DNA of 64,000 bases, taken from Nitrospirota bacterium (GTDB taxonomy: Bacteria; Nitrospirota; Thermodesulfovibrionia; UBA6902). Below are positions 61,379 to 64,000 of the stretch, piece by piece. The stretch spans positions 1-64,000 of the forward strand of contig JACQZF010000006.1 in assembly GCA_016213945.1 (NCBI GenBank). The letters are read 5' to 3'. Position 1 is the stretch's first letter. Every line of letters starts with the position of its first letter. The translations under genes and the position numbers were made by a program. The notes below the pieces were generated by a model. That model saw only the letters and a program-made list of their open reading frames with translations. It did no database searches and was not told the DNA's origin.

Positions 61379-61654
61379 TTACACCCTGTAAATTCTATAA
61401 ATCTCTTTTCTGACAGGACAATTGCAGGTACAGGAATAACCAAAGGACATCCTGTAATTACAAAGGTTGCTAACGGATGGCTTTATAAAAATAATCTTAT
61501 TATTAATGCCTTCCTCGACTTCGCAAAAGCATTCTTTTACACCCTGCAGACAGGAGAAGTTCATCTGGCATTTGTCTGTTTCATTTAAAGTATCTGCGCT
61601 AACTTTAAATTCCGCCCTGTTACGGCTGCTATGTGTCCCTGCATGCTCTTCCAT
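61379..61654 (-). CDS. small Cys-rich protein of unknown function
   Basis: 91 residues from the ATG at 61654 (GGGGG lies 5 bases upstream); an earlier start at 61714 is open but unlikely. Eight Cys occur as CQMNFSC, CFC, NLC and CTCNC, ending in CPVRKEIYRIYRV. The pattern suggests a metal or iron-sulphur site. It has no signal peptide. Its stop abuts the start of the response regulator gene, so the two are probably co-expressed. It may be a small redox or metal sensor working with the regulator; inference only. Confidence 0.6.
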   Translation of the reverse strand: MEEHAGTHSSRNRAEFKVSADTLNETDKCQMNFSCLQGVKECFCEVEEGINNKIIFIKPSVSNLCNYRMSFGYSCTCNCPVRKEIYRIYRV

Positions 61655-61798: not shown

Positions 61799-62377
61799 TT
61801 ACCGGGGGGCGATTATGCCTTTTTCGATTGCAATCGCTACTGCCTGCGTCCTGCTGACCGCGTTAAGTTTTTGCATAATGCCGCTTATATGGAATTTTAC
61901 AGTCCTTGCGCTTATATTGAGAATCAGCGAGATGTCTTCTGAACTCTTTCCCTCTATCAGCCATTTAAGCACTTCTTGCTCCCGTACTGAAATACCGTGA
62001 GTATTATTGCTGTTCTGGCGGATCAGGACAGCTTCTTTTATAATTGTTGTTATATCATTATTCCTGATGGGCTTGGTAATATAATCAAACGCGCCCAGCT
62101 TTATCGCCTGCACCGCGTCTTTTATTTCCCCGTATCCCGTCAGCATGATCACTACCGCGTTCTTATTTGACTTCTTAATTTCTTTCAGCACTTCCATCCC
62201 GTCAATCCCCGGAAGCCTGATGTCCAACAAAATTATCCCCGGCGAATGCGCCCTGAATTCTTTTAGCGCCTGGATGCCGTCACTTGCGGCAATGGCTTCA
62301 CATCCCTGCAGGGCCACAATATCCGAAAGAAGCATTCGCATCTCCCGGTCATCGTCAATGATCAGTATTTTTTCCAT
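61799..62377 (-). CDS. LuxR-type response regulator
   Basis: 192 residues. Receiver: ILIIDDDREMRMLLSDIVAL, GIILLDIRLPGIDGMEVLKE with the phospho-accepting Asp, MLTGYGEIKDAVQAIKLGA, and DYITKPIRNNDI with Lys. The helix-turn-helix is VREQEVLKWLIEGKSSEDIS and NISARTVKFHISGIMQKL. The receiver resembles those of NtrC-type regulators but the output is a LuxR domain. No histidine kinase is adjacent. It lies between the RiPP maturase gene and the Cys-rich protein gene. Confidence 0.9.
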   Translation of the reverse strand: MEKILIIDDDREMRMLLSDIVALQGCEAIAASDGIQALKEFRAHSPGIILLDIRLPGIDGMEVLKEIKKSNKNAVVIMLTGYGEIKDAVQAIKLGAFDYITKPIRNNDITTIIKEAVLIRQNSNNTHGISVREQEVLKWLIEGKSSEDISLILNISARTVKFHISGIMQKLNAVSRTQAVAIAIEKGIIAPR

Positions 62378-62498: not shown

Positions 62499-63800
62499 TC
62501 AATGATTCAATACCTTATATTTTATGTCCTGTTTGATGAATGTCTCAAGGACGGAGTCAAGGTGAGGTTTTTTGCAATCAACTTTGCTGATATTCCCGTC
62601 TCTCACGTAAGTCATGTAGCGGCATCCTCCGAAACACAGCGGCAGGTATTCGCAATCTTTGCATTCACCGTTCTTCCATATGCCGAGTTTGAGGGAAGCC
62701 TTGTAATCCGCAACTCCGTCCCGGAGATTACCGATCTCGAAATTCTTTCTTCCGATAAATGACTGGCACTTATAAATGCCGCCGTCATTATTCACGACGT
62801 AAAAATCCGTGATATCCATCTGGCACGGCGACGGTGTGACCTTTAACGAATTATAACCCCTCCTCAATATTTCCTCTCTTAACAGTGCCCCGGCCTGTAT
62901 CACCCAGGGCTCATTTAAGGACATGAACCCATCATTAAAGTCAACGTGTGAATTAATGTCAGAGGGATTTTTCATCACCGGATAAAAATTCACTTCCGAT
63001 ATTTTGTCCGGGGTGAGACCTGCCTTTTCGAGATGCCCGAAAAGCAGGGGGAATTTCCGGTGATTGTCTTGCGTGTAATTCCCTCCGATCTGGATATTTA
63101 CGATGTCGCAGGTCTGCCTGATGTTTTCAATGATGCCTTCAAAACTGCCCGCGCCCGATCTGAAGGGCCTGAAGGCATTGTGCACTTCGGGAGGGCCGTC
63201 AAGGGTTATCTTAACGCCAGTCAGTCCGAGTCCAGCCAGTTCCTGTGCGATGCGCATTTTAAAGAGCGAGCCGTTTGAAACGAGGTGGCAGGAATATACC
63301 GCGCCCCTGCCTTCCGCAAAAGACTTCATCTCGCCGGAAATTTCTTTAATGAGTTCAAGGCTCAACAGCGGCTCCCCCCCGTAGAAGTCTATATTGATTT
63401 TTTTCTTATTCGGGGTGAAGTTGCTTTTTATAAAGTCGACCAGAAGCCCTGCAGTCTCATCAGTCATATAATGCTTTCCCTTCATGTCTCCTTCATAACA
63501 ATAAACACAGTTGAAGTTGCAGTCGAGGTTGATTATGACGGAAACATTCAATGTCCTGTTCTTCTCATTGATCGAATCGAGCATCCCGTGCACTTCCCGC
63601 TTTTCAGCTTCAGTGTCAGGGACGATCATGCCGAGCTTTAACAACACCGCTTCATTTTCAGGAGAGAAGTTGCCTTTCAAAATGGAATTGAATGTCTCTT
63701 CTTTCAGGAGTATCTTTGATGATTTTTTCGTGGAAAAAAGGAGGAGATAGCCGGTCTTTTCGCTATAAGTATAGACTTTTAAATAACGGGAGAGTTCCAT
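62499..63800 (-). CDS. radical SAM / SPASM peptide maturase
   Basis: 433 residues. An N-terminal region of about 85 residues (ELSRYLKVYTYSEKTGYLLL) resembles the peptide-binding start of RiPP maturases. INLDCNFNCVYCYEGDMKGK holds CX3CX2C for the SAM cluster, INIDFYGGEPLLSLELI the GGE motif, VKITLDGPPEVHNAFRPFR a core strand. The SPASM domain has CQMDITDFYVVNN, GIYKCQSF, CKDCEYLPLCFGGCRYM and VDCKKP, enough for two auxiliary clusters. The ATG at 63800 has a weak ribosome site; a hairpin separates it from the 33-residue precursor gene just upstream. It very likely installs a crosslink in that peptide. Related maturase families occur with short Cys-containing peptides in Geobacter (geopeptide type), named from memory. 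Confidence 0.88.
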   Translation of the reverse strand: MELSRYLKVYTYSEKTGYLLLFSTKKSSKILLKEETFNSILKGNFSPENEAVLLKLGMIVPDTEAEKREVHGMLDSINEKNRTLNVSVIINLDCNFNCVYCYEGDMKGKHYMTDETAGLLVDFIKSNFTPNKKKINIDFYGGEPLLSLELIKEISGEMKSFAEGRGAVYSCHLVSNGSLFKMRIAQELAGLGLTGVKITLDGPPEVHNAFRPFRSGAGSFEGIIENIRQTCDIVNIQIGGNYTQDNHRKFPLLFGHLEKAGLTPDKISEVNFYPVMKNPSDINSHVDFNDGFMSLNEPWVIQAGALLREEILRRGYNSLKVTPSPCQMDITDFYVVNNDGGIYKCQSFIGRKNFEIGNLRDGVADYKASLKLGIWKNGECKDCEYLPLCFGGCRYMTYVRDGNISKVDCKKPHLDSVLETFIKQDIKYKVLNH

Positions 63801-63821
63801 TGTTTTTTTCAGGAATGCATG

Positions 63822-63854
63822 AAAAAGAAAGGGGAGGGTCTATGCCTCCCCTTT
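63822..63854 (-). terminator. hairpin between precursor peptide and maturase gene
   Basis: AAAGGGGAGG pairs perfectly with CCTCCCCTTT around 7 bases, followed on the minus strand by CTTTTTC. It lies 12 bases after the precursor stop and 22 bases before the maturase start. As in many RiPP operons it would let most transcripts end after the precursor, so that the peptide is made in excess. Confidence 0.75.
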
Positions 63855-63865
63855 CAAATTAATTA

Positions 63866-63967
63866 TCACTTGGAAGCTACTGGCATTGGCTTGCAGCAAA
63901 CCGCATTACTTGCCAGCTCTTCAACGCTGACGCCTTCATCCAGTACAATGATTTCTTCTTTTTCCAT
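63866..63967 (-). CDS. probable RiPP precursor peptide, 33 residues
   Basis: Minus-strand frame of 33 codons and a TGA, too short for routine gene finding. GGGAGGG lies 4 bases before the ATG, the strongest ribosome site nearby. The peptide begins MEKEEIIVLDEGV, an acidic leader-like part, continues with SVEELASNA and ends AVCCKPMPVASK. The only two Cys are adjacent, followed by a Pro- and Lys-containing tail of nine residues. It is followed by a hairpin and then the SPASM maturase gene. The size, acidic leader, Cys core and position fit a precursor. No other precursor copy is visible in the window; more could lie beyond the edge. Confidence 0.78.
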   Translation of the reverse strand: MEKEEIIVLDEGVSVEELASNAVCCKPMPVASK

Positions 63968-64000
63968 ATTCCCTCCCATGAGAAGATTTATCCCACAAAA

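Follow-up and report, generated by a model that had tools for sequence, protein, structure and literature searches.

Geopeptides are covered by curated models, TIGR04229 for the precursor and TIGR04280 for the radical SAM maturase, but in the literature searched, which was without most subscription papers, we found no paper on their name, product, function or partners, nor any linking a TonB receptor, a radical SAM RiPP and a kinase. Among the described systems, the SCIFF maturase CteB combines an RRE, a radical SAM core and a SPASM domain, as does the enzyme reported here, and forms a thioether in a peptide with six cysteines. PapB makes Cys-Asp/Glu thioethers (PMC9413430), and the sactisynthases RumMC1/2 have a SPASM domain with the layout CX13GX4CX36CX2CX5CX2CX18C (PMC8188230). 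In addition, methanobactin operons (MbnA/MbnT/MbnIR) bring together a short Cys-bearing RiPP, a TonB-dependent receptor, regulators and, in some loci, an exporter, and some of their precursors contain cysteine doublets (PMC3621798).

The window analysed here is a stretch of 64,000 nucleotides, corresponding to positions 1–64000 of contig C73 in a draft genome of 3.5 Mb. Close to its end, the original prediction had placed an undescribed RiPP cassette in which a short frame would encode the precursor of a SPASM radical SAM maturase, and the frame, its coordinates and the sequences of precursor, maturase and ribosome site were as it had given them. The features of the locus, including those of the contig beyond the window, are the following:

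63866..63967, minus strand: geopeptide-type RiPP precursor, 33 aa (homologous CC peptides, genome co-occurrence, dN/dS 0.10–0.24)
63970..63977, minus strand: ribosome-binding site GGGAGGGA of the precursor (sequence)
63827..63855, minus strand: terminator-like hairpin of 11 pairs followed by TTTTTC, in the spacer between precursor and maturase (folding against shuffles)
62499..63800, minus strand: geopeptide radical SAM/SPASM maturase, 433 aa (TIGR04280, invariant cluster cysteines, AlphaFold, Foldseek)
61799..62377, minus strand: FixJ-like response regulator, receiver plus LuxR-type HTH, 192 aa (Pfam Response_reg and GerE)
61379..61654, minus strand: small Cys-rich protein downstream of the regulator (no Pfam or NCBIfam match)
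contig 64042–65997, minus strand, past the window end: TonB-dependent receptor, 651 aa (directly upstream of the precursor, same strand)
contig 66142–67107, plus strand: PF04392 substrate-binding protein (divergent from the TonB receptor)
contig 67109–68710, plus strand: histidine kinase with Cache, HAMP, HisKA and HATPase domains (divergent from the TonB receptor)

The maturase reached 544.6 bits with the NCBIfam model TIGR04280, whose cut-off is 400; its residues 1–429 aligned to positions 1–428 of the 428 in the model, and by this score it is a member of the geopeptide maturase family. The label "undescribed" did not survive this result, since the enzyme passes a curated model by a wide margin, and the geopeptide systems, named at the outset as the nearest ones, proved to be so. 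All remaining NCBIfam families scored far under their cut-offs, the next best being PapB, CefB and TIGR04463, and the precursor has neither a Cys-X3-Asp motif nor a repeated Cys pattern. SCIFF membership was not supported either, as TIGR03974 reached 107 bits against 425 and the precursor, a 33-mer with one CC pair, has two cysteines.

The enzyme is organised as an N-terminal RRE-like region (residues ~1–75), a radical SAM core with the motif CX3CX2C (C94, C98 and C101), and a SPASM domain with seven cysteines in the motif CX13GX4CX34CX2CX5CX3CX15C (C326, C345, C380, C383, C389, C393 and C409). The full set of cluster cysteines had been noticed from the start, and all of them, three from radical SAM and seven from SPASM, were invariant in an alignment of 67 relatives. 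In the AlphaFold model (pLDDT 94), region 7–71 showed three strands followed by helices, and the top Foldseek match was CteB (5why/5wgg) over the full length, RRE included, the two sequences being about 19% identical in the matched region; CteB was also the closest solved structure by sequence. The RRE was called from this secondary structure and from the fold match to CteB, in agreement with the RiPP-maturase-like N-terminus of the original prediction, and together with the CX3CX2C motif and the SPASM cysteines it identifies the protein as an RRE-dependent radical SAM/SPASM RiPP maturase.

Comparison of the alignments gave the AuxI cluster of the maturase one ligand fewer than in the eight-Cys anSME, and because of this missing ligand the open AuxI site could be the place where a substrate cysteine binds. 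In addition, the SPASM layout is nearly identical to that of RumMC1/2 (PMC8188230). Because CteB is the closest enzyme by both sequence and fold, and given the AuxI ligand count and the RumMC1/2-like layout, the product most likely carries a thioether-type crosslink at the CC core, made by a CteB-like enzyme, and the CC pair is a plausible predicted crosslink site. By enzyme similarity and AuxI ligand count, the product would be a candidate sactipeptide or ranthipeptide.

The precursor, MEKEEIIVLDEGVSVEELASNAVCCKPMPVASK, is preceded by the ribosome-binding site GGGAGGGA and can be divided, at a predicted border, into the leader MEKEEIIVLDEGVSVEELASNAV and the core ...CCKPMPVASK. An in-frame ATG lies 12 nt upstream of its start, and the homologues favour the 33-aa start. 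Of the best 80 of 187 maturase loci, 72 have a homologous short CC frame immediately ahead of the maturase gene and in the same orientation, so that the search for the same pair in related genomes proposed at the outset gave a clear answer; by maturase, these relatives are mainly draft genomes of Nitrospirota (Thermodesulfovibrionia) and Desulfobacterota, many of them from the subsurface. Among the other eight loci, L055, L064, L123 and L126 start at a contig end or close to one, the precursor region of L098 contains masked bases with an ACC core still visible, the precursor of L121 is located downstream of the maturase, the peptide of L128 has a single Cys, and no precursor was seen at the maturase locus of L118.

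The same association was found at the level of genomes. Within the order, 15 of 47 genomes encode a maturase above the cut-off, and a profile of 35 precursors matched 14 of these 15 (E<1e-5) and none of the 32 genomes without maturase, the maturase of the 15th being at a contig end. Two of the matched peptides were absent from model building (G038:C100 and G045:C61), the first of which (MERDEIIMLDNGIDTDEMVYGGCCTTASAAVR) lies at a contig end and adjoins its receptor. Moreover, the precursor showed dN/dS values of 0.24, 0.14 and 0.10 against its counterparts in G036, L058 and L054, respectively, in pairs of at least 60% identity, and the raw proportions over 29 precursor pairs were 0.61 for pS and 0.18 for pN. 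Since it is conserved in relatives, co-occurs with the maturase and is under purifying selection, the 33-residue frame is, as judged from comparative sequence data, a real gene, and the assignment of precursor and maturase to a RiPP system is near certain. A lack of conservation at this place and a lack of selection had been named beforehand as what would speak against the prediction, and the opposite of both was found. That the frame could be a chance ORF beside an orphan maturase, as its short length and its score under the cut-off of the curated precursor model might suggest, was rejected on the grounds of conservation, co-occurrence and dN/dS, and its probability is practically negligible.

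In an alignment of 35 precursors (A4), C25 was invariant and C24 was present in 34, so that no part of the peptide is better conserved than the vicinal Cys pair, to which the original prediction had drawn attention, with the proviso that the seeds were picked with CC and its invariance is thus partly built in. The family shows an N-terminal motif of about IIVLDxG and a CC with 7–14 residues after it, the tendency being towards CC-x-G-A-[FL]-x-P-x-R; the core in the window, CCKPMPVASK, has no Gly, and the same is true of its nearest relatives (CCRPMPQALK and CCKPMPSATK). Apart from the CC and a C-terminal Pro/Arg pattern, the cores vary strongly, and there is usually one precursor per locus. 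Two precursors with differing cores were observed in L117 (9594–9761 and 9790–9924) and L103 (4018 and 5522), placed either in tandem or so as to flank the maturase. The precursors of L108 and L113 present a long Lys/Ala-rich repeat leader (MAKRIAVKKKAMKKKATKKKAAKKK...) ahead of TTCCAGALIRI, whereas elsewhere the leaders are acidic. Finally, the precursor of L128 (Geobacteraceae), located upstream of 3052, has the sequence MQQDVHVAKAEEMAEVMVVSEGTSGSGPQIGICFGSYFIVRG, in which the first Cys of the pair is missing and the second is retained; this naturally occurring variant could reveal which Cys is needed.

The precursor had not been recognised as belonging to any named family. It did fall below the cut-off of TIGR04229 (10.8 vs. 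30 bits), which no peptide from the 198 genomes of the phylum passed, but it turned out to be homologous to the geopeptides. The peptide of the Geobacter locus L119, METTEQEMELEVLDEGRSDQEEVNACCSSGGANRT, passes TIGR04229 (37.9 vs. 30 bits) and has in common with the window precursor the leader motif VLDEG and the CC, although the host of the latter is a member of the Nitrospirota and not a Geobacter; the L119 locus also contains a receptor, a binding protein and a kinase. Of the 35 precursors, 18 gave a sub-threshold or better match to TIGR04229, and both the alignments and the profile search placed the homologous leader motif and the CC beside a TIGR04280 maturase. As it fails the model but shares motifs with a peptide that passes it, the window precursor is, by motif and profile, a divergent geopeptide homologue beyond the reach of TIGR04229.

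Precursor and maturase are separated by 65 nt, within which 11 pairs form a hairpin with a T run behind it. The original prediction had not mentioned this hairpin, and one at the same position is conserved across loci. Compared with shuffles, the spacer in the window gave a folding z of −5.0, and 71 such spacers had a median z of −3.0, with 54 of them below −2. This hairpin is probably a partial terminator yielding more peptide than enzyme. A separate sigma-70-like promoter ahead of the precursor (TTGACA-16-TAGAAT, contig 64014–64041) was also considered, but the mean best score over all loci was 8.35 vs. 7.94 in shuffled sequences, and it is not claimed.

Extension beyond position 64000, recommended in the original prediction to look for transporters, proteases or more precursors, revealed a TonB receptor, a binding protein and a kinase, but no conserved exporter or leader peptidase among the neighbours in the best 80 of 187 loci. 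Thirty loci have 6.5 kb or more of sequence on each side, and among these the TonB receptor was present in all 30, the PF04392 binding protein in 27 and the Cache-HAMP histidine kinase in 26, these families being BLAST clusters with Pfam run on the members from the window genome. In 54 of 60 loci the precursor is the next gene after the receptor, in the same orientation; the median distance from the receptor stop to the precursor ORF is about 80 nt, and the genes for binding protein and kinase adjoin or overlap in 46 loci. A close orthologue of the binding protein was found in 13 of the 15 maturase genomes and in none of the 32 genomes without maturase. The receptor is related to FepA/BtuB/Cir types, with no STN domain found by Pfam, and the sensor domain of the kinase is similar to periplasmic Cache/PAS sensors, CitA and WalK among them (model pLDDT 79).

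On the other side of the cassette, the gene next after the maturase encodes the FixJ-like regulator, which most of the order's 15 loci have at this position, and its product is the likely partner of the histidine kinase, a predicted pairing. The family of the Cys-rich protein (61379..61654) was present in 7 of these 15 loci, and because two further copies exist in the same genome (C35 and C29) its membership of the cassette is doubtful. Proteins of this family have ~77–90 aa, end in ...MSFGYSxxCxCPxRxEIYxRY and were seen beside response regulators (L043, L048, L050, L051, L052 and L041).

The best explanation of the whole, to which we assign a probability of about 0.55, is that a CC-modified geopeptide is exported, re-imported by the TonB receptor and sensed through the binding protein and the kinase. 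The RRE of the maturase would bind the leader motif IIVLDxG, and a 5'-deoxyadenosyl radical together with the open auxiliary Fe-S cluster would modify the Cys-Cys core, with thioether formation most likely, while the partial terminator between the genes would keep the peptide in excess over the enzyme. The modified peptide would then exit the cell and re-enter through the dedicated receptor encoded immediately upstream, the PF04392 protein would capture it in the periplasm, and the Cache-HAMP kinase would report its capture, probably via the FixJ-like regulator. What the cell senses in this way would be either the modified peptide that it has made or a metal or nutrient bound to that peptide, which would act as a self-made signal or as a metallophore-like ligand. 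The precursor–enzyme pair, its conservation, the hairpin and the gene linkage are read directly from the sequence; we infer the crosslink type, leader removal, export, the receptor ligand and the direction of signalling.

The peptide could alternatively be a metallophore (chalkophore or siderophore), with the receptor importing the metal-loaded geopeptide for nutrition and the kinase regulating supply. A vicinal Cys pair is a good ligand for soft metals, and the kinship of the receptor with FepA/BtuB/Cir types points in the same direction. So does the layout, since methanobactin operons, too, place a short RiPP containing Cys next to a TonB-dependent receptor, with cysteine doublets in some precursors (PMC3621798). 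However, the maturase here is a radical SAM/SPASM enzyme, sensing involves a binding protein and a histidine kinase instead of FecIR-type sigma/anti-sigma factors, and Pfam showed, among the maturase and cassette proteins, none of the MbnB, and usually MbnC, that accompany MbnA. Furthermore, the neighbours of the binding protein in the best 80 of 187 loci include no recurrent ABC permease, ATPase or metal enzyme, so that no inner-membrane import is visible, and crosslinking may use up both cysteines. Nutrition by a metallophore is thus possible but rather doubtful, and sensing is favoured because a binding protein and a kinase are present but no permease.

The ten downstream genes scanned were unrelated or housekeeping, and in the best 80 of 187 loci no other neighbouring family was as recurrent as the receptor, the binding protein and the kinase. 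A half-size MFS protein, a candidate exporter or partner, was found beside the maturase in 14 of the best 80 of 187 loci; as a dedicated exporter it was rejected, given this low frequency and the lack of a close copy in the window genome. With its ~188 aa it covers the MFS profile in the first half alone (L010/L040, L011/L041, L014/L044 and 11 others). Many SPASM-made peptides are antibacterial, and the high variability of the cores outside the CC and the C-terminal Pro/Arg pattern would suit an antimicrobial peptide whose receptor and sensor genes provide immunity or detect rivals; nevertheless, no recurrent immunity gene, peptidase or ABC exporter was found, and the system looks chromosomal, is conserved across phyla and usually has one precursor per locus, which makes this function very improbable.

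The same genomes also contain receptor, binding protein and kinase as trios that have no maturase, apparently a wider sensing module in these bacteria. They include L163 (G000:C69), L164, L165, L166, L168 and L169, some with two or three tandem receptors. In the receptor tree, 68 of 69 receptors from geopeptide loci fell in one group, together with only 2 of 12 others, and the labels changed 4 times vs. 11.4 when shuffled, in what is a quick FastTree with long-branch warnings. Along with the distribution of the binding-protein orthologue, this indicates that geopeptide loci use a distinct branch of the wider module.

These data also bear on whether the peptide leaves the cell at all. It could be retained inside the cell or in the periplasm and serve as a redox or cofactor-like compound, PQQ being a precedent for a peptide cofactor made by a radical SAM enzyme; receptor, binding protein and kinase would then respond to some unrelated external compound and simply control production. 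The trios without maturase and the lack of a conserved exporter fit such an arrangement, but the position of the receptor directly ahead of the precursor on the same strand (54 of 60 loci) and the clustering of geopeptide-locus receptors on the tree do not, and we regard it as unlikely. A loop that senses the exported peptide is suggested by the receptor in 30 of 30 loci, the receptor-tree clustering and the co-occurrence of binding protein and maturase. Against it stand the absence of a conserved exporter or peptidase and the trios without maturase, which show that the trio needs no geopeptide; in addition, 3 of the 30 full loci have no binding protein, and the L128 precursor has a single Cys.

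In conclusion, the maturase family was already known in kind, and what is new is the linkage of a geopeptide cassette to a receptor and sensor, as well as the precursor branch found in the window. As TIGR04229 spans only a narrow branch, most precursors escape annotation. A first testable function for geopeptides is offered by the conserved receptor, binding protein and kinase, with a ligand that could be found by binding assays. If the loop is true, it would represent a Gram-negative RiPP sensing system in which a dedicated TonB receptor provides the passage across the outer membrane. More tentatively, and at somewhat less than even odds, Gram-negative anaerobes may run a closed loop in which a RiPP pheromone or metal-reporting peptide is taken up across the outer membrane, and the trios without maturase may listen for other ligands.
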